NCBI GenBank assembly: GCA_015143295.1
Contig: CM026560.1
Location: forward strand, 3,598,501-3,662,500
Direction: 5' to 3'
DNA from: Tetracentron sinense
Lineage: Eukaryota > Streptophyta > Magnoliopsida > Trochodendrales > Trochodendraceae
Length of the DNA: 64,000 bases
The notes beneath the pieces were generated by a model. That model was not told the DNA's origin, ran no database searches, and worked only from the letters and a program-made list of their open reading frames with translations. Positions within the stretch are counted from its first letter, which is position 1. Each line of letters starts with the position of its first letter. Made by a program: the position numbers and the translations under genes. Shown piece after piece: positions 12,702-41,759 of this stretch.

Positions 12702-13010
12702 TTAGTAACGATACTTGGTGGAGTAGTCTTTGGGGGCAATAACCAGACCCCGACCCTTCCTAGCCCCACGGTAGACAGTCTCAACAATGTCAATGAACTC
12801 CTGTTTGTCCTTGAGGGCCCAGTTGATCTTGTTGTTGTTTCCCGTGCCCAAGTCAATCATAATATGCTTGTTCCGGAAGAAGAACATGATCGTTGATGGG
12901 TCATACAGCTCATACATGGTGTTAAAGTCAGGCACCTCCGTGATGTCCACCAGGTAGATCACTGCAAAGTTCTTTATTGTCTCCGCAACTGAAGCCAGAA
13001 CCTCGTCCAT
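12702..13010 (-). CDS. YLS8: DIM1/YLS8 exon 2 (residues 41-142 and stop)
   Basis: The acceptor reads TGTCAAATGCAG just before ATGGACGAGG at 13010. The open frame continues upstream of the acceptor to 13097, but that extension has no resemblance to the family and is intron. The exon is 309 nt including the stop. A plus-strand frame at 12636-12896 is its antisense shadow. Confidence 0.95.
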   Translation of the reverse strand: MDEVLASVAETIKNFAVIYLVDITEVPDFNTMYELYDPSTIMFFFRNKHIMIDLGTGNNNKINWALKDKQEFIDIVETVYRGARKGRGLVIAPKDYSTKYRY

Positions 13011-15423
13011 CTGCATTTGACAACAGAACATCATAAATTTGCCATCTGACAATGTCAGACTCAATGGCCGGAATTTGAGATCAAGAAGGGAAGACAACTA
13101 CACAATCTAGTTCATGTAACTAACTTCAATAGGGACTCCAAACAATTTGTAAAGGCAGATGGTGTGTGGATGGATGGATCTCACAATCTAGTTCTAATCA
13201 ATTTCTTCATACAGGTAATTTATTATATTATGTGGTTTATAAAGTGACATGTTTTGTGCAAGTGCTTTGTAGTTTGTACACACATGCTAACGTTCATGTT
13301 TCGTATGGATTATAATAGAGTGCAAACATGTATTATGGAGGTGATTTTCACAACACGTGATGCGTAGGTTTTGTTGTTGGTAAAATTTACAGGAGACGTG
13401 AATTTAAGGAAGAGAAAGAACAAATCTATTTTAAAATTTGTTGGTGCATGTGTTTTGCTGGTGCTACTCCATGAACCATGGGATCTTAGAGAAGTGAAAC
13501 TCTTTTCTATATTATATCAGGCGAAGTAGAGTGACTCTAATTCAGAGAAGGGTGCTACTCATGAGAATCCTTTATCCTATTGCTAGACCAAATGATCCAG
13601 ACTATTATTATTTCCATCCCTCAGTCAATCTTTTCTAGTTCTGTTTTCTAATTGTTGTTACTGTCCGGAATCAGATATATACTGATATGGAGTCTGACCA
13701 TCAGAATGTACAACAGATATGAAAATAAAGTACATGAGTTTAACAAAGTGACATTGGTGCACCCAGCAAAAAATACATATAGATTTTAGAGCCTGTTACA
13801 ACCATTTAAACGACATTACATCATTCACTGGACAGAAGCCAACTCAATTGAACCATCAAAGATGAAATGACATGATCTCCATGAGTACCAAGTGGCTCAT
13901 TAGTACAAGAGAATAATGACTGCATGTCCATATTCATGGTGTTTGCTGCTCCAGTTCCTCAATAGTTGCCTAGATTTGTCTATGGGACTACCAGAGACAC
14001 CTCAGTAGTTGAAAGCTCGATAAATCAAGAAATATGCTGATAAAAAAAATACTGATTGAATGGACAGAATAAAAATAAACACTTTCACAGGAGCTAGGGT
14101 GGGCTGCTCGCTTCCTATGAAGCTCGTTTCTCTGACTCAAGCTCATTTCCATCACGTTCCATTTAGTGGTTGAAGGAAGTTATGTATGTGGGAAGTTATG
14201 GGATATACCCTAGTCTACATCCTAAGGTGTGACCCTAAACAAGTATCGTTGGAGTGGAACATAAAGCACCTACTCCACAAATATATCATGTAAGATAAAA
14301 CTAAGGTATGGCAGTACATACCAATGTAATAGAAATGAGAGGCCAAGTCTCATTTCTTACTTCTCGTTTCCAAGGATTTTTTGAGACTAGCTTCTCGCTT
14401 TTTCTTTACTTCTCATTTTCGCTTCTCGCTCTAATAACTATGTAGCAACTAGCAGTATAACAATTAAAATTACCCATCAATTGTTAGACAACATTCCGCA
14501 ACCATAATACCCTAGAGCACAGTTTATGAGCAAGAATCTCCACTTGGAAGGAGATTAGTCCTTTGATGAGGAGAACAATAAGTATCCATGGTCCTGGAAC
14601 CCCACTTTCTGAAAGGGAGCAGTGCAGATGAACATTTACGTAACAAACATCCATTATGCCTTATTATTTGATTTCCACATGGCACATTGTGATTTTGTTA
14701 CCAAAACCGTTATGTAACACCGAAAAGACCATTACGTAACTCTAAATCTAAATTTGGTTGTGCAAGAGGCTTCTAGCCCAAACCGTTCCGTGATGGGCAT
14801 TACATAACAAATGTCCATTATGCTTTACTAAATGATTTCTATGTGGCACATTGCTTTGTTGTCACCGAAACCGTTGCGTAATGCAGAAATGACCACACGT
14901 AACACTGAAATCATTGCATTACGGCCATTACACAACACCGAAACCATTATGTACGGTAAAACTTTTAAGTAACCATTTTTATGCCCATTACAATGAAACA
15001 CGTAAATATCATGTTACCACTAGTAATGGTTCAGGTACTGACGAAACCGATACATAATGGTTTTGACGTTTTTTAAACCATGTAAAATACTGAGACATTA
15101 AGATAATTTTTCGTTTTATATTTGGTTAAAGTAACCCTTCATTTATTATGTTTAATATATTTAGGGTTTTAAAACCTCTTTGAACCTCTAATTTACGAGG
15201 ATTTCCCTAATAGACGTGAAAGGATTAAGAGTCATTGGCCTATAATGTTGTTTTTCATGACTTCTTCTCAATTGTATGTTGTAAACAAAGATTTTCCATT
15301 TGATGGGCGAATATCATATGTTTTTATATATGATATGCACAAAGCAATGCATCCAAATTGCACTTTGCCTGCCTTTTTAATTAATATTTTGATATCATGG
15401 ATAAAGCATTACTATAAATATAA

Positions 15424-15464
<41 letters not shown>

Positions 15465-18400
15465 TGTGTGTGTGTGCAAATTAGAGACTTTAAAATTAAC
15501 CATTTAAAAAAAAGAACTGTGAGGCCTCACCTCATGCCTCAAGCGGCCACACCTCACACACACCTTCACATTTATAAACACTGGTTGCACAAGCAAGCTT
15601 TCGACCTTGAGTTTCCACAACTCAAAATTTTTGTCCCATTGAATCTCAGCTATGTGCGATAAGATTTGATAACACATTCTTAGGTTTGAGGTTAAGGCTT
15701 TCAAGAAATAGAAAACATAACTCTAGTTGTAAGTACCCAAGTTTTACACCCCATCCCTAACTATAGTTAATGGCCTTAACCATGGTTAGCCTACCCTACC
15801 CTAGGTCTAACCCTAGACCTAACCCTAGGCCTAACCCCAGACCTAACCCTAGGCCTAACCCTAGGATTAACCCTAGGATTAGCCCTAGAACAAACCCTTT
15901 TCAATGACCCAAGACCCTTAATCCAAATCCCTACCCAGATTCCCTAAAGTCATAGGCTAAAATCCTAGGCCTAACCCTAGGATTAACCCTAGACCTAACC
16001 CTAGGATTAGCCCTAGACCAAACCTTTTTCAATGACCCAAGACCCTCAATCCAAATCCCTACCCAGATTCCCTAAAGTCCATAGGCTAAAATCCTAGTCT
16101 AAGCCCAAGATGATTTCATTTTTAAAAGACTAGGCCCAAGCCCTTAGCCCTGTCCCAATTCCTTAACCAAGTCATATTGCCTTAGTCCAATCCCAAGGCA
16201 AAAGGGCCCATAACTCTACAAAACCAAAGGCCCAGGGTTCAAGTCCAACACCCATGGCCCAAACTAAACAAAGCCAGTGCACAGCCCAAGGACCCAGCTT
16301 GTTTCTTCTCTTGTGTAAAACCCAACAAAACACCTTTCTGGTGTTAAAACCAGACCCTACAAGAGCCCCAGATCTGCCCATATCCATTTTTAGTGTAAAA
16401 ATTTGAATTCAAAACAAAATCTGCACTAACCTGTAATGCCCAGGTTGACCCTCTAATAGGTCTCCATTCCCTCACCTACCTCCCCCATATTACACCCATG
16501 CCACCACCTTCACTCTTGACCCATAAATATAGCCTTCAAAAGCCTATTTGAGGAGGAAAAAAAAAAGAGAAAAAATCCCAGCAATCCACTTGCAAAAGCC
16601 CACACCCAGGTTATCAAACCTTGTTTTTTTCTTGACCCTTTAGAGGTTTTGAGTTGAACCTGGGGAGAAGCTTTGGCTTCCCCCATCATGTGGTCACTCA
16701 CCTCTTGGGTGTTAGCCACCACCTACTTCAAAAACCTTGAGAGAAAGTTTGGTGGTAAGAGGGTAGGTCTTTTCCCACCATTTCTAATCTTTGCTTTTCT
16801 GTTATAGGATCCTAGTCCATTTATAGGTCCTTCTGTGCTTCTCTCCCCTTTACAGATTAGTGAAAGCCTCCCTATTCCATTGTCAATGAGATAGGGAGGC
16901 ACTTATGAAGGAGAGTGGTTTTCTTTTCTTTTTTTTAGAAGTATACATTTGTTTTGCTTGGTGAGCATGAGCAAGCCTTGGGATAACCCAAGAAGCCCAG
17001 ATAAAGCACTGGTCTAGTTTCCAATTCTTTGCAAATACTCCTGAAGTAATTCATGGAGTCCCTTGGCCTCCCCTAGATCATTGGATTCTTGTTGGGGAAT
17101 CATCTGAATTGTGCTACCCATTTGCGGTTTGCTCTCTTAAACCCCAGTCCAGAATTTTGGAATTCTAGACTATGCTAAGCTTGGAATGCACCTCTTTATG
17201 GCTTATACCAGGTTCGGTTAACCCTTGTCCCTAGTCCATCTTGCTTTGTAGGTTTAGAGGATCATTTGGATCTCTGGCCGTGCCAAGCATGTTACCATTT
17301 CAGTATGTCCAGAATCATGATTTGTTTTAAGGTGGCTGGTCACTTGGTCCATTTGGCATACCCGAGCAAGACCCAGGTCCCGACCTGAGTGTTAGTGTAT
17401 TTGGGCCAAATCCTTGTTCTAAAACCGCACCCCAAGGACCTGGTCACCCTCCTTTTAGCTCGTCCCTTGCGCCTAAAGCAATGCTGAAATGAGCACTATC
17501 ATGTGAGATGGGTTGCTCTATCTTTCATTTGGGCCCTGAAACTTGGCCTTAAACCAATGGAAATCACCTAGAACTGCTAGCTATCCGGAAAGGACTCAAG
17601 TTGGCAATTGGCTAGATATCACAGCCACACTAAGGTCTACATTTACTCAGATTCAAAATTCGTCATTGACCTACTCTCCTCAAGTAAAGAGCCACCCTGG
17701 AAGATGCGTAATGAAGTCAGGAAAGTTAAAGATCTTTCTTCTCTTTTTCAATCCTGCGTCCCCTTTCAAGTTTGGAGGGAATCCAATAGGGCAGTTGATT
17801 GGCTCGCCAACCTATGTAATTCAATTTCTTCTTTTTTGTTTGCTCTGCCTCCACGGGATATCCCGCCTGAGCTTGTTACCATCCTACATGATGATGGGTC
17901 GCGTATACCCTAGATTGTAAATTCCCCTTTTGATCTTATATATTTTGGTACGGGTCTGCCTAACCCCAGCTTACCTTCCCCAAAAAAAAAAGGCTGAGAT
18001 GTGTTTTAGACCATATGCCTTTGAATTTTCACCTCAATTTATTTTATTCTCTATTAGATTATGAGTAATTAGCAAAAAAACATGATTGATTTTGTAAAGT
18101 TCAAATCTGTATTGGTGAATTCTGAGACCAACATGTAAACGCATAAATTTACCGCCTTTCCTCCCCTCTCAACTCTAGGTATCGGAAATAGGTCCGAGAG
18201 TAGAGGAATGACGCTAAACTTATTTTTATGAGTCGCCACCTACTTAGGGGAAGTAGGATCCCGAGATAGCCCAAATGAGGGGGGGTCTACGGTCCAAAAT
18301 AGTCTAGGTAAGGGATCCCTTTAGGTCCTGGGGAAGGGGTTAGGCACCCCAGGACCTCCATCTGATGACGGTAACCTACTCATTAGGTCTAAATCAAACA

Positions 18401-21400
18401 TAAAAAAATCACTTAACATTTCCTAAAATTTATTAATTTTGCTAATCGAAATCAAAAAGGGAGTGTAAAAAAGTTTATTTTGGTTGGGGTCGAACCCTGA
18501 TTGGGCTGCCTACTTATCCGGTTAGTCGGAATCAGACCCTCAATAGTAGTTCGGGGTCCGTGACTGTTTTTATACTCGTTTCGGAGTGTAGTCACTTCCA
18601 ACTCGTGTTTGAGTTGGGGAGGGGAAGTGGAATGAGATTTATGAATCTCACTCCGGGAGATGGCAGCGCAGCTAGGTGCTCGTGGGGGAGCTCTAGGGGG
18701 CGTTCATTTATTAGGGTAAGTCTTTTTTTTACATTTTGTGGGTTTTTTAAATGTTTTTGTTATTTTGTATTTTTTTGATTTTTTTTGTATTTTAATTTTG
18801 GCAAGTTAACTAGTCAAGAACTAAACTAAATGCCCAAGGTAGGCAAAAGGGAAAACAAAGCCTAAATGACTTAATTAACTTAAAGGCAAAGAGCAGGGCG
18901 GATCGAGCGGCCTTAAACCAAAAGAGGCTATGGTTTAAATACGGACCCTGCTCTAGGTCCCAAGGGAGGATAGACCAGTACCTTTAATTTATTTTGATCT
19001 TTTTTTATTTTTTTTTGATTTTTTTTGTAGGGCTAACTAACGGGGTGGGCCACTTATTTAAGGTTAAGAAAGGAAAACTATCTAAGTGCCCAATGTAGGC
19101 AAAATAGGAAAAGAAAAATCGCGGCCTATCCCTATTGCACATACACGGATAATATATACATACACAACAAAGTAGAAGGGCCCCAAGGGATAGTTAATGG
19201 GCCAAGGCCCATTGACCACTAATGGTCAATTGGCTTTGGTCCACCATCATTCTATACCAAAATGGTTCTAGGGGCTTCTAATTCTATCGCCCAAGCTTTG
19301 AACAATCCAAAGAAATATTATACTACAATAAATGAAAGGTATTAAATGAAAATGGGGGTAAAGATATACCTGCGAGGGCTGGTAGGAGAGTTGATGACGG
19401 TTGAGAAGTAGAAGGACTATGGTGAGACACCCTATCTCACAAACACTCAACCCACAGAACAATGGGTTTACCCACAAAAAATAGAAGAAGTAATAAATAA
19501 ATAAATAAAACAAGAATAGCCACTGATCTGGGCCAAATTCTTCTCCTGTAAAGGTAAAATGATGAAAGTAAGATGACATATGATGAAAATAATAGCTCTA
19601 TCAATCTAAATCTAGACTAAAGGCAATCTGGATTGGAGAAATAAGGTTTGACAAAAAAATAAAGAATAAATAAATAAATAAATAGAAGAAAAAAAACGAA
19701 AATTAAAATGGTAGAAGAATTGGATACCTGAGATGGGAGAAATAGGAGAATAGGCGTCGGAGCTCTTCAGTAGATCGAATCTACAGAAGGGACCTGCGAT
19801 CGGGCAAGAGGTAAAAAAAAAAAAGAACTAAAAGAAATAAAATCTCGAGAAGGAAGATAACGCACAGATCTATATCATGAGATTTAGATCTAGATGGAAA
19901 TCTAAGAAATTATTCTAGATCTAAAAGAAAAGAGACCTGGACCGAAGTGGATCTGATCTTGATGAGCAGCGATGGCTGTAGACCTCGTGAAGGATCAGGA
20001 GATTTGGATATGCGGGACTGGTGTAGCTTGTCGGAGGTGTTGTTGGTGGCGATGGAATGGCCGTAGTTTAGATCGGAGATGGCCGAAAATGGTAGTAGAA
20101 CTCCCCGGGTGTGAAGCTAGAGAAATGGGTGAAAGGGAAGAACTCACGAACTGGATCTGCTGGCCAGAGAGGAGCTGGGGATGATCGGCGCAGGCGACCT
20201 ACTGAAAAGAGAAGATCTAAAGAAATTAGATCTGGAATTTTAAGATCTAAAACTAAAGAATCTGAATAAGGGAGAGTGAGGGTTCGAATTGTTACCCGAG
20301 AGGTGTTGGCTGGTGAAGACTTGGGCTGGAGAGGTGGACGGTGGCGACTAGTCTGCAACTCGCCCAAAAGGAAAAACCGCTGGAGATGAAGACGCCGGAG
20401 ATAGGAAGATGATCGGAGCAACTGAGATGAAAAAAAACTAATGTAGATGAGCAAAAACACAAAATAAAGGAGAAAAAGAACGTTTCAGATTTGGATTTCT
20501 AGATCTAAGGTTTAGATCTAGAAAGTTCAGATCTAAAAAAAGAACGGGAAATCAAAGAAGTGGAGCACCACTTACCTGAGAAAAAAAATGGTGGAGTAAA
20601 GAGCTAGTTGGTCGGAGTGGGTGATCGGAGCTCGACTTAGGAGAAATTCCTGGTTCTGTACAAATGAAATCAACCAAGCAAAAATCCGAATTAAATCTAG
20701 ACCTAGATCTAGAGAGAAATCAGATCAAGAGCTGACCAAACAAAACAACAAACAAAAAAAATGAGGAAAAGAAGAGGGCGGGGGAGTTACCGGAACTTGA
20801 GTGAGATGGCGTCTGCAAGGAAATGCTCCGGTGATGACGAGAGGTGTGGCTGATCAGTTGAGTAACAGAGTTGTTGCTGTTACAAATAGCACAAGAAAGA
20901 AGAAATGGGGAAGAGGAAGAACGGGAGAGAGATGAGAGCTGCTGCTCTCCTACGAATGAGATTTCGTTTTTCTTATTAAACCCTATCTCCTCCCTTATAT
21001 AAGCAACAGTGAAGGGCTTTGGGGGTTTTTGGGCCTGGGTTTAGGCCCTTGTTCTTTGGGCCTGCGTTATGTATGTGGCTTATGTATACATGGGCTTTAG
21101 AGTCTTGGCTTGGAGTAGGGAGAGATGGGTTTTGAGCAAAAGATTGGGACCTCTCTCCAACTCTCTCAATCTCTCTCTCGAGACCTTGAGACCAAAAAAA
21201 ACATTACAAAGCGAAATAAAAATAAATCAAATTAAAGAAATAAACAAAAATAGTTAATTAAATTAAATTAAAAGGGGGAATTTAGGGGTGTAAAAATGGG
21301 GTGTTCACAGTTGCCCCTCTTTGTCGGAAAGTGCTGGCAATTGATCGACAAAGATTGAAAAACCCGTCATTTTTACACACCTAAAACCTGTGAAAACTTG

Positions 21401-30400: not shown

Positions 30401-33400
30401 CTGGCTGACGCGCCTGTTGATACTGATTTTGCCTTACCGGCTGAGGATTTTGAGGTTGAGGAGGTTGTCGAATCGGTGGAGCAGGCAACATCAAGGGTGC
30501 ACTGGGTGCAATCCAATTAACTTCTTCTCTTTTCCTGGTATCCTTTTGCCCATTATTCCTGTTAAATGGGGCACTTGACCTTGGAGGTGTATGGCTAAGA
30601 CTGGCATGTATGGTACCATTTTTTACAGCTGTTTCAATTCTTGCCCCTGTCTCGACAATTACCTTGAAATCAGTGGCCGGTAGAGTTATCATCAATGTTG
30701 AATATGGTTGCTTTAGGGTTCTCAAAAAGGTAGAAGCCATTTCTTCCTTTGATAACTGCACTGATAGTCTTGATGCCATTTCTCTCCACCTAGCAGCATA
30801 CTCGATAAATGATTCATTATTCCTCTGGGACAGTTGCTCTAGATCGCTCTTTTGAGGGAGCACCTCCAAGTTAAAAGAAAACTGATTGATGAAGAGATCG
30901 ATCACATCCTGCCAACTGGTAATTTGCTTCTTGTCAATTGCAAGCCACCACCTGAGAGCGGCATCTTTCAGACTTTTCTGGAAATATTGGATAAGATATG
31001 ATGGTTTATCTCTGTAGGCCATCATATCCCCCACATACAACTGTAAATGCTCTTTCGGACATCCTTTGCCCCCGTATTTAGTGAATTCTGGAACTCGAAA
31101 GTCAGAGGGAACCAAAGTATCAGAAGAGAAGAGTAGGTCATCCAGAGTTATCCCTGTAGAGGAGGATGATGCCCCTTGCATTTTTTTCATCATCTCTTTC
31201 AGCTGACGAATTTCTTCTTGTTGGTTCTTGAGAGACACCAACAACTCAGAATCCTGTGGCATTTTCGGGTTGTGATGGTCGCAATGCACAGCCTCACCAG
31301 TTTTTCCATCAAATCGGGTGTAGTCAAAATCACCATCCTCACCCGGCTGATCATGAAGAGGGTTGATAAAGGTAAAGTTTGGAGCAGGAATTTCAACCCT
31401 AGGTTGATCCGGTTGGAAAGGTCTAAACCCTGAATGGTCTGGTTGATGTCGAAAGGTTCCAATTCCGGGTGGGTCTGGTTGGAAACTTTCTGGTTGAAAT
31501 GAAGTTCTAGGCTGTTCGGGTTGAAATGGCCCGGCTTCTGGTTGGTGAGTAGGTTTGTTAAGCTGTAAAGCCATCAAAGCCTGCAAGGTTTCTTGAATAT
31601 TGTCCAATTGGGCTTTCATCCCATGTATCTCCTGGTCATGTGCTTGTACAAGCTGGTCTGTACTTGAATCCAAACGATTGTTGGGAGCAGCCATGTCTGC
31701 TGAGCTTTGAGATGACCAGTCTGCGACTTCAGGACTGTCCAGATCTATTATCGCAGCTTGGGCAAGGGCACGGGATACGGAACGAGTAACAATTCGCTGT
31801 TTCATGCAACACTGAGAAAGATGTAGCGATTAAACATGAATGCACGATTTGACAGTAAAAAGATGAAAATCACTTCTTTATATATGCATGTGTTTGTGTG
31901 ATTCTAAGACAACACTAAACCAAAAGAAAAATAATAAAAAGCAACAAAGGACAAATAGAAAGACAAAAAGAAAAAATGACCCAACCCTATACAGGTCTCT
32001 CAGGAATAACAAAGTCGGAAGGCAAGGGGTTGCCCCCGAGGTCTATCACTTGTTGATGAAGGATAGCAATCTCATTTTCTAGCCTGTCCACCGTGCCTGA
32101 TGCGCATTGAATTCTGTAGTCGAACTCTAGAGCCTCGACCTGAGCATGATGTCTGACTGCTTTCAACTGTTCTTGATTCTGACGGAACTGGATTTCAAAC
32201 TGGAAAGACTCCTCAGCATCATCTCTTTTCCTCTTTTGAAACTCTCGGAGTGCTTGCTCTAGCTGATGTTCCTTATCACGGGCAAACTGACGTCGATTCC
32301 CCAGGTCACTTTCTTGTTGTCGGAGGATCTGTTGCGCTCTCTCCAATTCCTCGGTATCTCTCAGAATCTTGAGTTGGATCTGTTCTAACTGTTCCTCCTT
32401 CCTGCGGACTGCCTGATATTCCCTTTTCAACTCAGCTTCATGTTGCCGGTGTGCCTGTTGCGCCGACTTGAGCTTCTTAGTATCCCTTAATATCTTCAGA
32501 CGATTTCCTAGGAAAGTATCTTTCCACGGCACCACCACCTCAGAAAGGGGAAGGCTTCCTCTGGACGGTGCTGTAACTGGGGTGAGCAATTCTGCTGGCT
32601 TTGGCATTTCTGATTGTATGTCCGGGTTCTCCAACCATAAATCATATTCTTCTTCAGTCAACGGTTCCCCGGGTCCAGGTTCTACTATGTCATTCTGGAA
32701 ATTTTTCCCTTTTACATCGTCTCCATTCAGTTTGGAAACGCCTTTCTAGAAGTTCAGCTGCAGTAGAGAAAACACAATAGTCTTCTGCTAAATCATCGAC
32801 CACTGGGATAAACTGTCGGTATCCAAACTGTCGGAGTACTCTGAGTGGAATGTAGGGCGACGATCCAGTTAGGCCAGCAAGAATTATGCATCTTCTTCCA
32901 AAGGTAGTTAAAAGAGGAAGCCTTCGTTTGTTGATTACGAGCCAGCGACACTTCCAAATTATCTCGTCTTCTGATAACTGCTGAAGCTCTCTGTAACAGT
33001 CTTCCATTTTTTTACACACAAGCTTGGATTGGGACTGGCTAAATTTTCGCACTATGTTCCGAACATCATAAGCAAATTCTGAGGGCACAGTAACCATTGA
33101 TGGTAAATGCTCGATCAACCATAACTGTAAAAGAGATACACTGGCGTTGAATGTCCCTTTCCTTTTTTCACTGCTATATTTAAGACTCCTAAGAAGCTCT
33201 CCCAGGATCATCGGGACGACTGACCCTCCGCTACGCATGTCTTTGACTACCCCTACCAATACAGATTCAGCAATACTGAGGTTTTTTGGGAAGATGAGCT
33301 GAGCTAGAACAATCCATGTAAGAACATTAAGTGCTGACTCAGATTCAGCTTCAGGTGCACTAGGGTCCCACGAAGGTCTATACATATCCCACAACTTGTT

Positions 33401-36400
33401 CATTTCAACCCTTGAGTAAGTACCCTTGGCATTGTTGGGTAATCGGTCAGGCTTGATATGTAAAAACTGCGCAAGTTCAAGCTGGTAATTTGTTCTGTAA
33501 TGGGGTAGAATAGCAGGACCATCAATATCCAGCCCTAAGATGCGTTCGACTTCTTCGATTGTCGGACACATTTCATTTTTTCCAAAACGGAAAACTACAC
33601 TTTTAGGATCCCAACAAAGAATCGCCGCCCTGACTAAACGCCAATCAGGATCGATCAAAGCAAGGTCTAAAATATTTCCCACATGGTATCTCTGCATCCA
33701 AACTAGTCGACGGGCAGAATTAAGGCCTTGAGCTGAACCTAAAATTGTAGCTGTGTCTCTGAGTTTGGCATCACAAATAGCACGCATCTCCAATTTGAGT
33801 GAAGGCCCTAGGCCTCCCGGCCTAATTATTCCTGAAGGGCCTGCCATCTAAACAATAGTGCACAAGTGAGATCCTACGCAGGTGCTACATGATGATGCAA
33901 AACTTTTGAGAATGTTTTCGTTTTTTCTCTTTTTTTTTTTTTTTTTTTTATTTTTATTTTTATTTTTTTTTTTATGTGACATTACATATGTAAACTAACA
34001 GGGTGGGTGGACAAAAGCCCAGTCCACTAACTTGGGTTTCCAAGACCTATTAGATTAAGGTAATAAATGAATAAGGGGATATCCATTTATATCTGAATTC
34101 GGAAATTTTTATTATATATTTTTTTTTAGTTTTTTATTTTTTTATTTTTATTCTTAGTCAAGACATACGTAAACCAATGGGGTAGGTATAGAAGTCCAAC
34201 CTACTACCTTGGGTTATTGGAAACCAAAGCCCATTAAGTTTAAAATAAAAAGGGATAAGTGAATACCCATTTATTATTTGAGGTTAGGACCCCCATATGT
34301 AATGATTTAAAGAAGCTGGTAAGGGGTTTATTCAATCACACATGGCTCATCAAACATGGTTCACACATGCCCTCTTTCTTGAATGAACATATGGGTACAA
34401 AAAGATACCCTAATATACAACCAAAAAGGAGGGCGGGTATAGGTTATAAGCAGGATAGGATTGGGAGAAACCATCCTAATCTACTGCTTATAAACTATAT
34501 CACAACCTAATCTATATGCGTATGCCGGGGTAATGCAAGGTGTTCCTAAGGTGGTTGGGGGACGCTTGGCCGTATATGCGACTCCCAAAATGGGACGATT
34601 GGCGCAAGTGGGAGAAACCGAATCCGTTTCTACGGGTACAACCCATAAGGCGTGATCCAGCTGAACTCCACAGATCAGGAAGCCCCTGGCGCTGAAGATA
34701 CGTATCAAACAGCCGTAGGCCCCATAGATCCAACTAATGGGTTATAAGGTGATTACACTAAAATGCAATGAATATGATATGCACAAGAAAGAGAAAATAA
34801 GAACATACCCACAAAAGAAAGAATTAGCAAAAAGAATAATCGTTTTTAGGAAATGATTAGGGATTTAAAAAATGTTTGGCTTTTACCTAATTTTCAGGTT
34901 GGATCCTACATATCCCCAGCAGAGTCGCCAAAGCTGTGAACGCCAAAATTTACCGCCCTTCCTCCCCTCTCAACTCTAAGTATCGGAATAAGGTCCGAGA
35001 GTAGAGGAATGACGCTAAACTTATTTTAAGAGTCGCCACCTACTTAGGGGAAGTAGGATCCCGAAATAATCCAAATGAGGGGGTCTATGGTCCAAAATAG
35101 TCTAGGTAAGGGATCCCTTTAGGTCCTGGGGAAGGGGTTAGGCACCCCAGGACCTCCATCTGATGACGGTAACCTACTCATTAGGTCTAAATCAAACATA
35201 AAAAAATCACTTAACATTTCCTAAAATTTATTAATTTTGCTAATCGAAATCAAAAAGGGAGTGTAAAAAAGTTTATTTTGGTTGGGGTCGAACCCTGATT
35301 GGGCTGCCTACTTATCCGGTTAGTCGGAATCAGACCCTCAATAGTAGTTCGGGGTCCGTGACTGTTTTTATACTCGTTTCGGAGTGTAGTCACTTCCAAC
35401 TCGTGTTTGAGTTGGGGAGGGGAAGTGGAATGAGATTTATGAATCTCACTCCGGGAGATGGCAGCGCAGCTAGGTGCTCGTGGGGGAGCTCTAGGGGGCG
35501 TTCATTTATTAGGGTAAGTCTTTTTTTTACATTTTGTGGGTTTTTTAAATGTTTTTGTTATTTTGTATTTTTTTGATTTTTTTTGTATTTTAATTTTGGC
35601 AAGTTAACTAGTCAAGAACTAAACTAAATGCCCAAGGTAGGCAAAAGGGAAAACAAAGCCTAAATGACTTAATTAACTTAAAGGCAAAGAGCAGGGCGGA
35701 TCGAGCGGCCTTAAACCAAAAGAGGCTATGGTTTAAATACGGACCCTGCTCTAGGTCCCAAGGGAGGATAGACCAGTACCTTTAATTTATTTTGATCTTT
35801 TTTTATTTTTTTTGATTTTTTTTGTAGGGCTAACTAACGGGGTGGGCCACTTATTTAAGGTTAAGAAAGGAAAACTATCTAAGTGCCCAATGTAGGCAAA
35901 ATAGGAAAAGAAAAATCGCGGCCTATCCCTATTGCACATACACGGATAATATATACATACACAACAAAGTAGAAGGGCCCCAAGGGATAGTTAATGGGCC
36001 AAGGCCCATTGACCACTAATGGTCAATTGGCTTTGGTCCACCATCATTCTATACCAAAATGGTTCTAGGGGCTTCTAATTCTATCGCCCAAGCTTTGAAC
36101 AATCCAAAGAAATATTATACTACAATAAATGAAAGGTATTAAATGAAAATGGGGGTAAAGATATACCTGCGAGGGCTGGTAGGAGAGTTGATGACGGTTG
36201 AGAAGTAGAAGGACTATGGTGAGACACCCTATCTCACAAACACTCAACCCACAGAACAATGGGTTTACCCACAAAAAATAGAAGAAGTAATAAATAAATA
36301 AATAAAACAAGAATAGCCACTGATCTGGGCCAAATTCTTCTCCTGTAAAGGTAAAATGATGAAAGTAAGATGACATATGATGAAAATAATAGCTCTATCA

Positions 36401-39400
36401 ATCTAAATCTAGACTAAAGGCAATCTGGATTGGAGAAATAAGGTTTGACAAAAAAATAAAGAATAAATAAATAAATAAATAGAAGAAAAAAAACGAAAAT
36501 TAAAATGGTAGAAGAATTGGATACCTGAGATGGGAGAAATAGGAGAATAGGCGTCGGAGCTCTTCAGTAGATCGAATCTACAGAAGGGACCTGCGATCGG
36601 GCAAGAGGTAAAAAAAAAAAGAACTAAAAGAAATAAAATCTCGAGAAGGAAGATAACGCACAGATCTATATCATGAGATTTAGATCTAGATGGAAATCTA
36701 AGAAATTATTCTAGATCTAAAAGAAAAGAGACCTGGACCGAAGTGGATCTGATCTTGATGAGCAGCGATGGCTGTAGACCTCGTGAAGGATCAGGAGATT
36801 TGGATATGCGGGACTGGTGTAGCTTGTCGGAGGTGTTGTTGGTGGCGATGGAATGGCCGTAGTTTAGATCGGAGATGGCCGAAAATGGTAGTAGAACTCC
36901 CCGGGTGTGAAGCTAGAGAAATGGGTGAAAGGGAAGAACTCACGAACTGGATCTGCTGGCCAGAGAGGAGCTGGGGATGATCGGCGCAGGCGACCTACTG
37001 AAAAGAGAAGATCTAAAGAAATTAGATCTGGAATTTTAAGATCTAAAACTAAAGAATCTGAATAAGGGAGAGTGAGGGTTCGAATTGTTACCCGAGAGGT
37101 GTTGGCTGGTGAAGACTTGGGCTGGAGAGGTGGACGGTGGCGACTAGTCTGCAACTCGCCCAAAAGGAAAAACCGCTGGAGATGAAGACGCCGGAGATAG
37201 GAAGATGATCGGAGCAACTGAGATGAAAAAAAACTAATGTAGATGAGCAAAAACACAAAATAAAGGAGAAAAAGAACGTTTCAGATTTGGATTTCTAGAT
37301 CTAAGGTTTAGATCTAGAAAGTTCAGATCTAAAAAAAGAACGGGAAATCAAAGAAGTGGAGCACCACTTACCTGAGAAAAAAAATGGTGGAGTAAAGAGC
37401 TAGTTGGTCGGAGTGGGTGATCGGAGCTCGACTTAGGAGAAATTCCTGGTTCTGTACAAATGAAATCAACCAAGCAAAAATCCGAATTAAATCTAGACCT
37501 AGATCTAGAGAGAAATCAGATCAAGAGCTGACCAAACAAAACAACAAACAAAAAAATGAGGAAAAGAAGAGGGCGGGGGAGTTACCGGAACTTGAGTGAG
37601 ATGGCGTCTGCAAGGAAATGCTCCGGTGATGACGAGAGGTGTGGCTGATCAGTTGAGTAACAGAGTTGTTGCTGTTACAAATAGCACAAGAAAGAAGAAA
37701 TGGGGAAGAGGAAGAACGGGAGAGAGATGAGAGCTGCTGCTCTCCTACGAATGAGATTTCGTTTTTCTTATTAAACCCTATCTCCTCCCTTATATAAGCA
37801 ACAGTGAAGGGCTTTGGGGGTTTTTGGGCCTGGGTTTAGGCCCTTGTTCTTTGGGCCTGCGTTATGTATGTGGCTTATGTATACATGGGCTTTAGAGTCT
37901 TGGCTTGGAGTAGGGAGAGATGGGTTTTGAGCAAAAGATTGGGACCTCTCTCCAACTCTCTCAATCTCTCTCTCGAGACCTTGAGACCAAAAAAAACATT
38001 ACAAAGCGAAATAAAAATAAATCAAATTAAAGAAATAAACAAAAATAGTTAATTAAATTAAATTAAAAGGGGGAATTTAGGGGTGTAAAAATGGGGTGTT
38101 CACACAACACACGTGTCTATTATGTCTTAAGTCCCTTGTCCTGCTGTTCAAAGCTCAGTGAAGATAAAGTCTGGAGATTTCGCGATCAAGCTTCGCTCCC
38201 GTATTAGGATGGTAAGTGAGACTTAGATACTTAGTTCTTCCTCGTTCAAATTGTCTTAGATCACTTTTATGGACCCTAGGTGACCAGACTATAGAGTAGC
38301 ACATGTTCAAATGTCGGATCCTCAAAAAATAGTGAAACTGGGAAATCCGGTCAACCATGTGCTGAAAAATTTTGTATGGGAAAATTTTTCAAAAAGAGTA
38401 TTTTTGCCCGGTCGACTGAGTTTGCATATTCGGTCGACCGACCTGCCCAATGCAGTCGACTGACATTAGACTGGGTCGACCAGATTGCGTGATCTTGCAA
38501 AATTTTGAATTTCCTATTATGTTTTTAGTTGGTCTATATAAACACACTTTTCCTAATTCGAGATAAGGGTTTTTAGGAGTGAGAGTTGAGACTACCAAGC
38601 CTATTCTAAGGTTTCCCAATCTTCTTGGATGATCCCTTGTTGATCTCTCCTCCCTCATCTCTCTCGAGATGCAAGCCTAAAGTTCTTCATTGTTGAAACT
38701 TGCATTGTGTGAACTTGATGATTTCGAGATTCCTCTAGAGGTAGTTTTTGTTTGAACCAAATTAAAACCCCTTGACACTTGAGAGTGTTTGGTTGGCATG
38801 GAGCAAAAGACGTTGCGACGGAGATCAGTCTTGCGAGGTCATGGACGAAGAAGTTGTAACATGTCGAAGCCACCTCGACATGGAGATCGGATTGTGATCC
38901 ATGGTTATCAAGACGAAGAAACTGTTGTCAAGGAGATACCGTGTTGAGTTGCGTCCTATTGGGTAAAGTTTTCTAAGTCTTGTCTTTGTAGGTCGATTTT
39001 TCTTATAGTGTATTCAAAACTGGACGAGATCCCGTGGTTTTTCCCGGAAGGGTTTTCACGTAAAAATCTTGTGTTCATGGTGTAATTGTTTATTTATTTC
39101 TGCCTTATTTAAATTGTTAATTTAAAATTGGTAGAAATAGGTAGACCTATTTCACACCCCCCCCCCCCCCCCCTTCCCTCCCTCTAGGTCTCAGGATTCA
39201 TTGATCAAGGATATTTCAAATTTGAACCATGTAGACCAAGTTCTGGCTAGTAGCTTAGTCCAGTGTGCTGTGAAGCACAGATCAATGACTTTAACTGGCG
39301 CTACTATAAACACTGACAACCATAGTTCAAAAACCCGAAAACTCGACTCAAAAGTTAGGCGAGTCAAGTCACTCGGAATACTCGAAAAAAACTTGATTCG

Positions 39401-40281
39401 TTCCAACTCGGAATATATGTAATAACTTGAAAAATCTGGGTTAAAAGAACTCAAAGTATTCTGGTTTTACAGTCTCAAACATATAAACTACGTTTAACAA
39501 AACCCATAGTTATTGCTATTATAGTGATTCTTGCTACTTTTGGTAGTTTCCTTTTCCAGAATAGCATGTCACTATTTTGTGTAAATATTGCATAAACTGT
39601 CATTACATGTTTCCATTTATGATTTATTTCCAATTCTAGGCTTCTAGCATGATATCCTTAATAGCTTTTTAATTGAAATCCGTTACTTACAACAACCAAA
39701 GAAAAGAAAATGTACATTCAAATACAGCTTAAAGAATATTCATAAATTCACATATTATTATTTTTTGTCACTATTTGGGATCGACAATATGAATCTCTCC
39801 ATATTCGTCCTTTTCGGGCTTCTCCTCCTCACCCGGGATTTAACTTGCACCACCTCCGCCTAGTCATTAATTTTCATTCAACGTTTCCAAAAGACCATCT
39901 AATACTTTTATCACATAGTAGAGCTATCCCTGATTTCTATATCTATTAATTCACATAAATTCAAATAACCCCCCCCCCCCCCCAAAAAAAAAGGGGGGGG
40001 GAAAGGAAGTAAAAATAGAAAGATGTTAAGGTTTGATGGAAAATTCAGTAGAAGGGATGAGAACATGTTTTTGGAAGACAACAAATCAAATTCAAAAGAA
40101 GAAGAACCAATATGTACCAAAAACTGAGGAGAAAGACGGAGACAAAATCTAGAAAGAGTACCTGCATGCAGGTTTCGTCCCAGTCGTGGCCGAATCGAAT
40201 GAGAACGAGCCGTTCTTCCTCGGCGAGGATGGCTTGATCAACGGCCCAGCCCGAGTGCAGGTGAGGGAGAAGATACGACAT
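12702..40281 (-). CDS. YLS8: DIM1/YLS8, U5 snRNP thioredoxin-fold protein (two exons, giant intron)
   Basis: The product is the 15-kDa thioredoxin-like protein of the U4/U6.U5 tri-snRNP (human TXNL4A, yeast Dib1, plant YLS8/DIM1), a core nuclear pre-mRNA splicing factor. Exon 1 (40281-40162) encodes MSYLLPHLHSGWAVDQAI through GHDWDETCMQ. Exon 2 (13010-12702) starts MDEVLASVAETIKNF and ends PKDYSTKYRY with a stop. The sum is 142 residues, exactly the usual family length, with the conserved FGHDWDETC, DITEVPDFNTMYELYDP and NNNKINWALKDKQEF blocks and no missing part. The ATG at 40281 is the family start; an in-frame ATG 10 codons upstream gives a non-conserved extension. The only unusual feature is the 27.2-kb intron. 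Both exons are on the same strand, in the correct order, with complementary splice borders in phase 0. Plants often carry two paralogues, so YLS8 versus DIM1B is not settled. Confidence 0.92.
13014..14629. other. Unassigned intron sequence
   Basis: No exon-like open frame, transposon terminus or tandem repeat stands out. A loose inverted similarity of GCTCGCTTC and TTCTCGC words near 14105-14150 and 14380-14440 may be a decayed MITE. Confidence 0.4.
14630..15065. repeat. GTTACGTAAC-word-rich repeat (decayed transposon?)
   Basis: More than ten variants of the words CCGTTACGTAAC, CATTATGTAAC and CCATTACAT occur in both orientations over 430 bp, ending CATAATGGTTTTGACG near 15053-15070. Two half-units share CATGGCACATTG and GTGGCACATTGC segments about 160-170 nt apart. 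There is no open frame. It resembles a fold-back or MULE-type non-autonomous element built from palindromic words. Confidence 0.4.
15421..15478. repeat. (TA)n(TG)n compound microsatellite
   Basis: An alternating TA run of about 18 units followed by GCATGTGTGTGTGTG inside the DIM1 intron. It is potentially polymorphic. Confidence 0.9.
15728..17480 (+). repeat. Ogre/Tat-type LTR, partial or solo
   Basis: The start TGTAAGTACCCAAGTTTTACACC followed by AACCATGGTTAG matches the start of the plus-strand Tat LTR at 51357 (TGTAAGCATCC, TTTTTACACC, AACCATGGTTAA). Both then carry a field of CCCTAGG/TAACCCTAG words (15780-16100 here) and a TATA box (CCCATAAATATAGCC near 16520). Two 150-nt stretches starting CCCTAGGATTAACCC and continuing with TTTTCAATGACCCAAGACCC are duplicated near 15860-15960 and 15985-16090. 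The right end was not recognised; the limit given is where LINE sequence takes over. Confidence 0.5.
17490..17991 (+). mobile_element. L1-type LINE 3' end with RNase H domain (5'-truncated)
   Basis: The frame 17608-17913 encodes the C-terminal RNase H domain typical of plant L1-type LINEs: VYIYSDSKFVIDLL, then NRAVDWLANL, ending PPELVTILHDDGSRIP. A short 3' UTR ends in A10 at about 17981-17990, the expected LINE tail. Reverse transcriptase is absent, so this is a 5'-truncated insertion. Upstream residues of the domain lie in another frame, so it is decayed. It lies on the plus strand, antisense to DIM1. Confidence 0.7.
18134..21309 (-). repeat. 3' LTR of the Ogre element
   Basis: 3176 bp, bounded on the right by the polypurine tract and on the left by the target duplication. 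It carries the same TAGATCTA-rich and GA-rich blocks as the 5' LTR. Open frames inside (for example near 19268-19579 and 20068-20460) recur identically in the other LTR and have no codon or domain signal; I treat them as noncoding. Confidence 0.93.
21310..21323 (-). other. Polypurine tract of the Ogre element
   Basis: The minus strand reads AAAGAGGGGCAAC directly before the LTR start TGTGAAC. It is the plus-strand DNA primer site and matches the tract before the second Tat-type LTR (AAGAGGGGCAGC at 51345-51356). Confidence 0.8.
21690..22870. repeat. Ogre 3' minisatellite, about 30 copies of a 39-nt unit
   Basis: The conserved part of each unit is TGACAACACATTCCGATGTCA, itself ending in the inverted pair TGACA/TGTCA; the rest is a variable 15-20-nt spacer. 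Higher-order repeats are present: a 158-nt period (copies starting 22181, 22339, 22497) and a 119-nt period (22621, 22740, 22859), i.e. four and three units. Units nearest the LTR (left end) are the most diverged, those near 22300-22860 almost identical. Cys-rich repetitive open frames here are translations of the array. Confidence 0.92.
22871..23360. other. Ogre 3' region without a gene
   Basis: Noncoding sequence between the minisatellite and the hairpin-repeat block, with a CGCGATCGCAAG stretch near 22910. No function is recognised. Confidence 0.5.
23361..23870. repeat. Duplicated block with four GCGCAATTTTTGCGC-type hairpins
   Basis: A unit of about 210 nt starting GAATGACCAAGTCAC is present near 23359-23573 and again near 23667-23870. 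Each unit has two related motifs, the first GCGCAATTTTTGCGC (23378-23392), a perfect 6-bp stem with a 3-nt loop, each followed by GAGGCC and CTCATGCC. The same motif recurs in the second Ogre copy near 49613-49760. It lies between integrase and the minisatellite, i.e. in the element's 3' untranslated region. Confidence 0.75.
23871..24459. other. Ogre 3' region, T-rich low-complexity DNA
   Basis: T-rich tracts (24060-24165) and the sequence up to the end of the integrase frame. A Lys-rich open frame on the minus strand at 23953-24189 is a by-product of the T-tracts. Confidence 0.5.
24460..27897 (-). CDS. Ogre pol: RT, RNase H, second RNase H, integrase
   Basis: This 1145-residue frame copies and inserts the element. 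In order: reverse transcriptase (about residues 130-330) with YPEWLANIVPVPKKDGKVRM, SFMDGFSGYNQIKM and the catalytic YVDDMIVKS; the element's own RNase H (about 390-530); a linker; a second, archaeal-type RNase H (about 575-700) with MYFDGAANQHGNGAGAVL and YGDSSLVICQ; and integrase (about 800-1060) with an HHCC-type zinc finger (HGGVCGPHMNG to CCRHVQKCHQC) and the catalytic WGIDVIGP, VTDNALNF, NGAVEAANK series. The C-end has the GPY-type module KFTPNYEGPYIV. The double RNase H is diagnostic of the Tat/Ogre lineage. Confidence 0.95.
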   Translation of the reverse strand: MVCQGITQDKANSNHEINLELLEVEYDEEEEGEPPQEILDLLEQYEGICKTNEEDTETINLGSKDDPKCVKIGTTMNPEQRSAMIDFLKSYIDVFAWSYADMPGLDPELVVHRLPLNPEVKPVKQKLRRLRPEWSQKVKEEIEKQISAGFLAVATYPEWLANIVPVPKKDGKVRMCIDYRNLNKASPKDNFPLPHIDILVDNTAGHETLSFMDGFSGYNQIKMAEEDMEKTAFITPWGTFCYKVMPFGLKNAGATYQRAMTALFHDMMHKSTEVYVDDMIVKSPLAKDHPEDLKRLCDRLRGFGLRLNPAKCVFGTTSGKLLGFIVSKRGIEVDPAKARAIIEMPAPQTEKEIRGFLGRIQYISRFIAQLTPICEPIFKLLRKNVPTVWSDECQQAFDKIKQYLLNPPVLVPPTPGRPLLMYISIQKTSMGCVLAQHDESGRKEQAIYYISKRLHEYEEKYNALERTCLVLVWATQRLRHYLLSYPVILVSRMDPLKYLLEKPATSGRTARWLMMLSEFDITYMTQKSIKGQAIADHLAYNPSSDYVSVHDQFPDEAILSLEPEDPDYIGWEMYFDGAANQHGNGAGAVLISPRGAHLPISVKLKFRCSNNATEYEACIAGLREAHCIGIEEIDVYGDSSLVICQANESWAIKEEKLIPYLACLNVMITKFRRITFNHRCRTHNRFADALATLAAMVKFPKGSLIWPIEIQQQDQPAYCLVIEERPDDKPWYTDIKQYLDDGTFPLDATKTDRRAIRRLSIQFVLSRGVLYKRSPNLIWLRCLDKKEAAQVVEEVHGGVCGPHMNGLMLSKKILRLGYYWTTMESDCCRHVQKCHQCQIYADRINAPPTTLHNLTAPWPFSAWGIDVIGPITPKASNGHRFILVAIDYFTKWVEAASFANVTASVVQRFFKKDIICRYGVPYEIVTDNALNFCNKGMTELCQRFKIQHHNSTPYRPQANGAVEAANKNMKRIIEKMAIRYSAWHEMLPYALMAYRTSIRTSTGATPFSLAYGMEAVLPIEVEIPSLRVLMEAEIEESEWAQARYEQLHLIEEKRLKAIDHSQAYQRRMARAFNKKVRPRDIEVGDLVLRKLLPNRPDPRGKFTPNYEGPYIVREKFSGGALRLGRMDDEDLPEPINVDKVKKYYA
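27898..28232 (-). other. Spacer between Ogre gag-protease and RT, likely spliced intron region
   Basis: 335 nt of T/A-rich noncoding sequence separates the protease frame from the RT frame. In described Ogre elements an intron between protease and RT is removed from part of the transcripts so that gag-protease and pol products differ in amount. The last part (CTGAAGCCACCAAAAA on the minus strand) is conserved in the second copy near 45357-45372. I did not fix exact splice sites. Confidence 0.6.
28233..31805 (-). CDS. Ogre gag-protease polyprotein
   Basis: 1190 residues. After a Pro/Gln-rich N-part (residues 1-170, repeated FQPDQPR and FQPEQPR words), a retrotransposon gag domain covers about residues 230-410 (VPEFTKYGGKGCPKEHL, ALRWWLAIDKKQITSW, LFINQFSFN, FIEYAARWREMASRL). 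A zinc-knuckle-like CAYHRGPGHATDVC follows near 525. The aspartic protease region (about 840-960) carries AVLVDNGSGLNVCTL and the closing LLLGRPWIHMAGAIPS. A G-patch-like stretch follows near residue 1040 (MKYRPGLGLGAHHQG). A Pro-rich tail leads to the spacer before RT. The product would form the particle and process it. Confidence 0.9.
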   Translation of the reverse strand: MKQRIVTRSVSRALAQAAIIDLDSPEVADWSSQSSADMAAPNNRLDSSTDQLVQAHDQEIHGMKAQLDNIQETLQALMALQLNKPTHQPEAGPFQPEQPRTSFQPESFQPDPPGIGTFRHQPDHSGFRPFQPDQPRVEIPAPNFTFINPLHDQPGEDGDFDYTRFDGKTGEAVHCDHHNPKMPQDSELLVSLKNQQEEIRQLKEMMKKMQGASSSSTGITLDDLLFSSDTLVPSDFRVPEFTKYGGKGCPKEHLQLYVGDMMAYRDKPSYLIQYFQKSLKDAALRWWLAIDKKQITSWQDVIDLFINQFSFNLEVLPQKSDLEQLSQRNNESFIEYAARWREMASRLSVQLSKEEMASTFLRTLKQPYSTLMITLPATDFKVIVETGARIETAVKNGTIHASLSHTPPRSSAPFNRNNGQKDTRKREEVNWIAPSAPLMLPAPPIRQPPQPQNPQPVRQNQYQQARQPVRNPQRNFTPLPYSLSQLLTFLLKKDLVTLKGPTPLIPVEKQNRNYHADHYCAYHRGPGHATDVCYTLRHDIQDLLEQGKVEFAPGNTSIIQAPLPPHQGQINFLSGDASDGSIVEIDGLSETDDAIRPSYRVPVRIPYPQSLSSPESPIIQPIQIPHMLPVHSSTIQSIQRPIQIPFIPVEEEKIVYTIPCPVDWPTTPVISSPRPFGKGPVQIPYIPAPIHPLNRLPAPPSLILDNENITAITRSGRVYQQPEVELPKSKGKEQCQSSEQQIEEDATLLKILEKAKEYNIAHQLTRLPAQISVMGLLLTSEHHREQLLRVFNNAHVTKDITPERLGQLVGQILEPKTITFSEEEIPDSDKEHTRALYISVQCRGKTLSAVLVDNGSGLNVCTLTTLEGLGMDISHVKKRPMTIRAFDNSTRQNLGDVDLNISIGPSEFLTNFQVVNVPASFTLLLGRPWIHMAGAIPSSLHQRIKFIQGDQLIVIPTESLANSFGDVQELGQGAAFMTYQFEEVTCIAQLESKKSEYIPAAVRIMAKMKYRPGLGLGAHHQGLKKRYVAPRYTPRFGIGYKPELEDFLNKLTKGKSSVKSVPPPPLSVTFPTSIPRPSDFEIYENLPFEETDPEPTVNPTPKPPPRDDPARFLEMFEVAQLFEELAVEDAVRIDCVAEEQVCTLSSASQASSSSAPLIRVSSSPLVWWTDPITIEAARGRQGKKVGIVRP
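31987..32661 (-). CDS. Ogre accessory frame, coiled-coil protein
   Basis: 224 residues. After about 45 residues comes a long Glu/Lys/Arg/Gln-rich helix with two near-copies of LKILRDTEELERAQQ separated by about 55 residues, typical of a coiled coil, ending in a short LENEIAILHQQVIDL segment and a PSDFVIPERPV tail. It lies between the PMD-like frame (28 nt away) and gag. Ogre elements carry an extra 5' frame of unknown role here; the coiled-coil nature is seen, the function is not known. Confidence 0.65.
   Translation of the reverse strand: MTEEEYDLWLENPDIQSEMPKPAELLTPVTAPSRGSLPLSEVVVPWKDTFLGNRLKILRDTKKLKSAQQAHRQHEAELKREYQAVRRKEEQLEQIQLKILRDTEELERAQQILRQQESDLGNRRQFARDKEHQLEQALREFQKRKRDDAEESFQFEIQFRQNQEQLKAVRHHAQVEALEFDYRIQCASGTVDRLENEIAILHQQVIDLGGNPLPSDFVIPERPV
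32690..33847 (-). CDS. Ogre ORF1-like protein with plant-mobile-domain similarity
   Basis: 385 residues. The core (about 45-270: RLVWMQRYHVGNILDLALIDPDW, FRFGKNEMCPTIEEVERILGL, LNVLTWIVLAQLIFP) resembles the helical domain found in plant aminotransferase-like 'plant mobile domain' or DUF7745-type proteins, known both from transposons and from host silencing factors of the MAIL1 family. It starts about 1.09 kb inside the primer binding site, where Ogre elements carry ORF1. Family assignment rests on motif resemblance only. It may act in evading or recruiting host silencing; that is speculation. Confidence 0.7.
   Translation of the reverse strand: MAGPSGIIRPGGLGPSLKLEMRAICDAKLRDTATILGSAQGLNSARRLVWMQRYHVGNILDLALIDPDWRLVRAAILCWDPKSVVFRFGKNEMCPTIEEVERILGLDIDGPAILPHYRTNYQLELAQFLHIKPDRLPNNAKGTYSRVEMNKLWDMYRPSWDPSAPEAESESALNVLTWIVLAQLIFPKNLSIAESVLVGVVKDMRSGGSVVPMILGELLRSLKYSSEKRKGTFNASVSLLQLWLIEHLPSMVTVPSEFAYDVRNIVRKFSQSQSKLVCKKMEDCYRELQQLSEDEIIWKCRWLVINKRRLPLLTTFGRRCIILAGLTGSSPYIPLRVLRQFGYRQFIPVVDDLAEDYCVFSTAAELLERRFQTEWRRCKREKFPE
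33848..34913 (-). other. Ogre untranslated leader
   Basis: About 1.07 kb from primer site to the first frame. T-rich tracts on the plus strand (33928-33976, 34110-34155) flank two diverged copies of a roughly 175-nt unit (33985-34090 and 34160-34270, both with GGGT(G)GGT and ATACCCATTTAT/ATATCCATTTAT words). No open frame of note. Confidence 0.6.
34914..34930 (-). other. Primer binding site of the Ogre element
   Basis: The minus strand reads TGGCGACTCTGCTGGGG, four bases from the LTR end at 34935. This is the tRNA-Arg type site characteristic of Ogre/Tat elements. Confidence 0.85.
34935..38104 (-). repeat. 5' LTR of the Ogre element
   Basis: 3170 bp with the 7-bp terminal inverted pair TGTGAAC...GTTCACA. 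On the minus strand a TATA box (GCTTATATAAGGGAGG, 37785-37802) sits about 300 nt from the LTR start, so most of the LTR is transcribed R-U5. That part is rich in TAGATCTA/TCTAGATC words (36660-36725, 37010-37055, 37290-37330, 37490-37515). Almost all base differences from the 3' LTR fall in its first 165 nt. Confidence 0.93.
38110..39195 (+). repeat. Copia-type LTR, split by the Ogre insertion
   Basis: The stretch has a TATA box (CTATATAAACAC, 38534-38545) preceded by TCGA-centred palindromes. Its end resembles those of the sirevirus LTRs (ACCTATTTCACACCCCC followed by CCCTCTAGGTCTCA). The Ogre sits at its left side with target duplication CAACA, so the beginning of this LTR should lie just left of 18129; I could not mark its exact start. 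No internal copia coding region follows, so it may be a solo LTR. It includes a C17 run at 39157-39173. Confidence 0.5.
38349..38545 (+). promoter_or_regulatory. GGTCGACC palindrome cluster and TATA box in copia-type LTR
   Basis: Words CCGGTCAACC (38347), CCGGTCGACTG (38408), CGGTCGACCGA (about 38431), CAGTCGACTGAC (about 38453) and GGGTCGACCAG (about 38475) lie 45-190 nt upstream of the TATA box at 38535. The spacer TGGGAAAATTTTTCAAAAAGAGT resembles one in the Tekay LTR at 4942-4965, although the LTRs otherwise differ. Confidence 0.5.
39196..40161. other. First part of the DIM1 intron, unassigned
   Basis: No exon, gene or clear transposon terminus was seen apart from a homopolymer block at 39969-40001. 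This may be remaining original intron sequence. Confidence 0.4.
39969..40001. repeat. C15-A9-G9 homopolymer block
   Basis: A run of 15 C, nine A and nine G in direct succession, about 160-190 nt inside the intron from the DIM1 donor. It could fold as a C:G hairpin. Run lengths are error-prone in sequencing. Confidence 0.85.
40162..40281 (-). CDS. YLS8: DIM1/YLS8 exon 1 (residues 1-40)
   Basis: 120 nt from ATG to CAG|GTACTC. It encodes the highly conserved N-part ending GHDWDETCMQ. The frame stays open into the intron but loses all similarity after the donor, and the expected next residues (MDEVL) are found 27 kb away. Confidence 0.95.
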
Positions 40282-41745: not shown

Positions 41746-41759
41746 TCATTTGTTTGAAC

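Follow-up and report, generated by a model that had tools for sequence, protein, structure and literature searches.

A 20-kb Ogre/Tat-type retrotransposon accounts for most of a 27.2-kb intron in a DIM1/YLS8 gene of Tetracentron sinense

The 27.2-kb intron of a DIM1/YLS8 gene in Tetracentron sinense consists of one retrotransposon of about 20 kb lying within an intron that is otherwise about 7.2 kb long. The gene, here called copy B, is located on the minus strand of the 64,000-bp stretch of DNA that was analysed as a whole and that we refer to as the window (C10:3598501-3662500). Our account, which we hold with good though not full confidence, is that a normal DIM1 gene received an Ogre/Tat-type element in its intron after a duplication and that this intron is still spliced.

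Judged by its sequence, copy B is a normal DIM1/YLS8 gene of the U5 15-kDa/TXNL4A family, its coding region being interrupted once, by an intron that follows codon 40. The coding part of exon 1 (40162..40281, minus strand) provides codons 1-40, and exon 2 (12702..13010, minus strand) provides codons 41-142 and the stop codon. Their translations, of 40 and 102 residues, add up to 142 residues, the length of the DIM1 family (DIM1/YLS8/TXNL4A/U5-15kD), to which rice OsDim1, human hDim1 and yeast DIB1 belong; two exons have also been reported for rice OsDim1 (PMC6897961). The intron (13011..40161, minus strand) has GT-AG borders in phase 0, with the donor CAG/GTACTC and the acceptor TGCAG/ATG, and is single within the coding region, which is the part examined. 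The sequence-only reading had placed the two exons 27,151 bp apart on the same strand, with these borders, this phase and a 142-residue product, and all of this was reproduced. The window contains no N, and an assembly gap was therefore rejected as the source of the intron size. Both exons exceed the 27-bit cut-off of the PF02966 (DIM1) profile, exon 2 with 166.1 bits and exon 1 with 48.3 bits, and together they cover positions 1-38 and 36-133 of its 133 positions. The best PDB match of exon 2 is human hDim1/U5-15kD (E 1.4e-59, 201.4 bits), so that it is nearer to TXNL4A/hDim1 than to TXNL4B (66.1 bits). Given that both exons pass the cut-off and that exon 2 matches hDim1, we judge these matches not to be due to chance, and the DIM1/YLS8 identity first proposed for the gene is confirmed. 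The two halves belong together, since a paralogue, copy A, located 436 kb from copy B, has both exons and the adjoining intron sequence in collinear order. The idea that the exons come from two different genes or are pseudogene halves was likewise rejected, given that paralogue A is one collinear unit and that the frame and splice sites are intact.

Searching the genome (1.16 Gb in 1,479 contigs) with the PF02966 profile gave nine matches, with 12 of 12 candidates scored. Apart from copy B, they comprise paralogue A (C10, minus strand, exon 1 at 3175172-3175053 and exon 2 at 3161588-3161280), copy C (C18, exon 1 at 2523571-2523690 and exon 2 at 2530487-2530795), a lone DIM1 exon 1 on contig C1360 (75.8 kb long), and a TXNL4B-type DIM1-like gene with two matched exons about 2.4 kb apart (C20:17252785-17255502). 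The one exon of the latter gene that was compared with the PDB matched only TXNL4B-type chains (3 of the 3 sequences listed). The protein of paralogue A is identical to that of copy B, and the protein of copy C differs at two residues. Copy C was considered as a pseudogene and rejected as such: the TAG seen within the search match belongs to the acceptor site that precedes exon 2, and all 142 codons are open. With these two further intact copies free of the insertion, the earlier claim that the splicing machinery depends on removal of the copy B intron does not stand. The suggestion to look for a second, compact DIM1/YLS8 gene was borne out as regards the existence of intact copies but not as regards their compactness, the intron after codon 40 measuring 13,464 bp in A and 6,796 bp in C, compared with 27,151 bp in B.

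Long introns at the codon-40 site recur in all three copies, and the sequences that lengthen them appear not to be detectably conserved, as no same-strand blastn match was found at E 1e-3 between the intron of A or B and that of C. The size of the intron in copy C and that of the copy B intron minus its element suggest that the intron of the lineage probably already measured several kb before the insertion. Coding differences between A and B are synonymous in 14 of 14 cases (dS 0.171, dN 0; for comparison, dS is 0.68 for B/C and 0.87 for A/C), which indicates that both copies were under constraint during most of the period after they split. When polarised by copy C, nine of these differences fall on the A branch and two on the B branch, with three unpolarised; the purifying selection that they record spans the time since the duplication, most of it possibly preceding the insertion, and says nothing on copy B after that event.

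The element occupies positions 18134..38104 (19,971 bp, minus strand), in the same orientation as the gene. It is bounded by a 5' LTR of 3,170 bp (34935..38104, minus strand) and a 3' LTR of 3,176 bp (18134..21309, minus strand), with TG...CA ends. A 5-bp target-site duplication, CAACA, adjoins the 5' LTR at 38105..38109, where the haplotig described below has the same junction, and the 3' LTR at 18129..18133. In that paralogue the undisturbed target site reads GAGACCAGCACATGTG, and when the element and one target-site duplication are removed from copy B, the alignment with A runs on through the insertion point for 1,456 columns, at 90.6%. The insertion, its target duplication and the empty site in the paralogue are, like the intact reading frame of the gene, direct observations. 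The element makes up 74% of the copy B intron, the remainder without it and one target-site duplication being 7,175 bp.

Scans for open reading frames and domains show, in the direction of transcription, an extra ORF upstream of gag with a plant mobile domain (PF10536, E 8.7e-22) and DUF7745 (32690..33847, minus strand), a gag ORF with PF03732 (28233..31805, minus strand) and a pol ORF (24460..27897, minus strand) encoding reverse transcriptase, RNase H, a second RNase H and integrase. In the latter, RT_RNaseH (414-518) is followed by RVT_3, the second RNase H (574-692), the integrase zinc-binding domain (783-839) and rve (858-955). The gag and pol ORFs are 335 bp apart, and repeat comparison revealed a tandem-repeat stretch in the interval between pol and the 3' LTR (21795..22862, minus strand). 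The sequence TGGCGACTCTGCTGGGGA, located 4 bp past the 5' LTR, is a candidate primer-binding site that may match tRNA-Arg. The assignment to Ogre/Tat is based on domain order and ORF features. Ogre elements are reported to share with Retand a further RNase H, placed between the usual one and integrase; 57% of Ogre elements are reported to carry a plant mobile domain within their extra ORF, and two ORFs to be separated by a mean of about 274 bp (PMC6317226). The element thus resembles the Ogre lineage, within Ty3/gypsy Tat, in the position of the second RNase H, the ORF with the plant mobile domain, the spaced gag and pol ORFs, the large size and the tandem repeats.

On both sides of the element, the host intron aligns piecewise with the intron of paralogue A, from 38110 to 40161 (minus strand) on the exon 1 side and from 13011 to 18128 (minus strand) on the exon 2 side, about 1.8 kb of the latter being unaligned. 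The intron of A carries two additions of its own, a stretch of about 3.4 kb that is absent from B and one of 2.4 kb. The ends of the 3.4-kb stretch (about C10:3170309-3173690) form an LTR-like pair of 463-bp direct repeats, 92% identical, and this addition was inserted independently of the copy B element. Outside the intron, beginning about 236 bp upstream of the ATG, copy B has some 1.2-1.5 kb that is extra with respect to A (40518-42062). This upstream insertion contains a zf-RVT reading frame (41037-41399, minus strand), presumably of LINE type, and the alignment with the haplotig continues through it. Farther upstream of the gene, decayed Ty3/gypsy-like remains with reverse transcriptase and integrase pieces are present on the plus strand (45621-48587), and the equivalent part of the haplotig shares 73.7% identity with pol of the intronic element.

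We propose that the gene was duplicated on the chromosome and that the 20-kb Ogre/Tat-type element then entered the intron of copy B in sense orientation, which would have raised its length from 7.2 to 27.2 kb. The intron would still be transcribed and removed in most transcripts, so that splicing would operate across 27 kb. By analogy with other plant genes, the element would be silenced by heterochromatin, and its polyadenylation signals would be bypassed via an IBM2/EDM2-type route. Some loss of output from copy B should be tolerable, given the two other intact DIM1 genes, A and C. In Arabidopsis and rice, genes with transposon-bearing heterochromatic introns are reported to require IBM2-type factors for full-length mRNA, their transcripts being polyadenylated prematurely close to the transposon in mutants (PMC4417168, PMC7145194, PMC11265718, PMC10241880). 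In rice, transcription is reported for many genes whose introns carry heterochromatin, and lower expression, with a small effect, for genes of this kind (PMC7145194); lower expression of heterochromatic-intron genes is also reported for Arabidopsis (PMC11265718). In Chloranthus, long-intron genes are described as having higher expression, falling above 40 kb (PMC8626473). The introns handled by IBM2/ASI1-EDM2 (those of Arabidopsis IBM1 and RPP7 and of rice OsIBM2 targets) are like that of copy B in having a transposable element or repeat inside a long intron, a likeness at the level of the nucleotide sequence; IBM1 differs in being a histone demethylase and not a splicing factor.

A sense-oriented element makes truncation a real risk for copy B transcripts, and copy B may instead have been disabled recently, the element and the promoter-proximal insertion stopping or truncating the majority of its transcripts, with the function left to A and C. 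The element's own transcription and polyadenylation signals point the gene's way, with AATAAA hexamers numbering five per LTR and 17 in the interior (raw counts, without a chance control), and read-through from exon 1 meets a stop after 38 intron codons. The insertion so close to the ATG fits such a loss as well, and its LINE-like piece near the promoter may weaken copy B further. Arabidopsis mutants in intronic heterochromatin factors are reported to show premature polyadenylation around intronic transposable elements at four selected loci (PMC4417168), and large-intron genes of grapevine to have fewer ESTs (46.0% vs 32.8% singletons; PMC3058033). However, copy B has kept an intact coding sequence, intact splice sites and an intact acceptor region, all close to their counterparts in A, genes with introns of such size are reported to be expressed in other plants (PMC8626473, PMC10246380), and copy B has accumulated fewer changes on its branch than A, though these mostly predate the insertion. 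On balance, we regard the loss of copy B as unlikely and favour continued splicing of its intron.

The haplotig on contig C1360 bears on the integrity of the assembly. It matches the window from 30.4 to 54.7 kb in opposite orientation, in four long pieces at 89-97.5%, and ends inside the element. Exon 1 shows no difference in 120 positions, the 5' junction with CAACA is identical, and no exon 2 match was found in the 75.8 kb of this contig in the PF02966 search. We infer that C1360 represents the other allele, in which case the insertion would be present on both haplotypes. Over 38-54 kb of the window, divergence from C1360 increases away from the element, from 0-1.3% per bin at 38-40 kb to 3-8% at 46-50 kb, and is 1-6% farther out. 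Within the element the pattern is a mosaic. The LTR stretches of window and haplotig have 0 mismatches in 2,182 bp, compared with 12 in 2,040 for the host intron beside them, and the binned interior differs by 0 to 13%, parts of it by 9-13%. The two LTRs of the element have 0 mismatches in 2,973 bp, yet 12 in 197 in the U5 end. Over about 3.17 kb, the 5' LTR of the window has no mismatch with an LTR on C851 (C851:2689-5859), and its U5 end (34935-35131) matches C851 but neither the haplotig nor the 3' LTR; the 3' LTR matches the haplotig (C1360:70001-71021) at its own U5 end (18134-18333). As the C851 flank showed no match to the copy B intron in the 10 kb of 27 kb compared, C851 is taken as another locus. 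A 1.5-kb LTR query was found in full length at 100% (rounded) in at least six places, namely twice in the window and on C66, C851, C1360 and C13; this search gave at least 77 matches, with the best 40 of 810 candidates scored, and the counts are lower bounds.

Such identical LTR stretches, the affinity of the 5' U5 end to C851 and the divergent parts of the interior would all be expected if the assembly were wrong inside the element or had joined pieces of different elements, in which case the true intron length would differ. We consider this very unlikely, given that the two outer junctions carry the same target-site duplication, that both flanks match paralogue A and that C1360 has the same 5' junction, while interlocus gene conversion would yield the same mosaic. 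Gene conversion among young copies and assembly chimaerism would explain the mosaic alike. Dating the insertion by LTR divergence was rejected as untrustworthy, given the contrast between the body of the LTR pair and its U5 end and the identity of LTR stretches also between contigs. With LTR stretches too alike and a mosaic interior, we withhold an age and give the 20-kb length as approximate; the position of the element is more certain than its exact length, which depends on a single assembly of a young repeat family.

It is highly improbable that the long intron has been retained for autoregulation, with splicing load or intronic silencing feeding back on the DIM1 level. In its favour, all three copies have introns of at least 6.8 kb at the codon-40 site, and IBM1, a chromatin regulator, is reported to be regulated by way of a heterochromatic intron of its own (PMC11265718). 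Against it, the intron of A or B shows no detectable conservation with that of C, A and B received their insertions independently and A lacks the element, so that nothing specific is seen to be maintained and, apart from the gene's name, nothing found in the sequence points to autoregulation. It would be just as far-fetched to see copy B as a sensor in which faltering splicing of long or heterochromatic introns ends transcripts inside the Ogre-filled intron; if true, this would lower a core tri-snRNP protein and couple spliceosome supply to transposon silencing.

As splicing biology, copy B with its Ogre/Tat-type insertion is an ordinary finding. Its interest lies in the natural comparison that it offers, with identical proteins encoded 436 kb apart and a 20-kb sense element present at one intron site in B and absent from it in A. 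The 14 synonymous differences between A and B would allow reads to be assigned to either copy, so that one could measure what a very long intron costs a housekeeping gene.

Judged by one control family, an intron of 27 kb lies in the tail of the size distribution in this genome, and multi-kb introns are not rare. Among 18 adjacent exon pairs of that family, Adaptin_N, the median distance was 174 bp, with five pairs over 1 kb, two over 5 kb and one over 10 kb; some of these pairs may represent a single gene on its two haplotypes (170 bp on both C10 and C105), and the search gave at least 72 matches, with the best 82 of 128 candidates scored. Ten more Adaptin_N pairs, with 4-30 residues missing between the exons, had distances of up to 11.1 kb, and a search with PF03810 gave no usable intron lengths. 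The sequence-only reading had ranked the intron among the largest that a plant gene can have, which is too strong in view of reports of introns over 100 kb in 23 genes of Sapria (PMC10246380) and of an intron-size bin over 20 kb in grapevine (PMC3058033). Within a set of 2,184 orthologues, 876 Chloranthus genes are reported to be longer than 20 kb (PMC8626473). At the other end, the longest intron reported in a Siberian larch annotation is 10,153 bp, which its authors describe as a possible underestimate by the pipeline (PMC9370799). A giant DIM1/YLS8 intron is not described in the titles or opening abstracts of the papers among the matches listed.

Retrotransposon insertion is a well-known route of intron growth in plants, and the case of copy B is ordinary in this respect. 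Repeats are reported to make up more than 80% of the large introns of grapevine, where LTR insertions are recent (PMC3058033), and LTR elements are reported as a major contributor to the long introns of Chloranthus (PMC8626473). Copy B resembles these inflated introns of grapevine (PMC3058033) and of Chloranthus and magnoliids (PMC8626473) in being a conserved gene with an intron enlarged mainly by an LTR retrotransposon; in grapevine, the enlarged intron is reported to be often 5' and the insertions to be often recent (PMC3058033). From such introns that of copy B does not differ in kind, the single 20-kb element here making up its 74% share of the intron.
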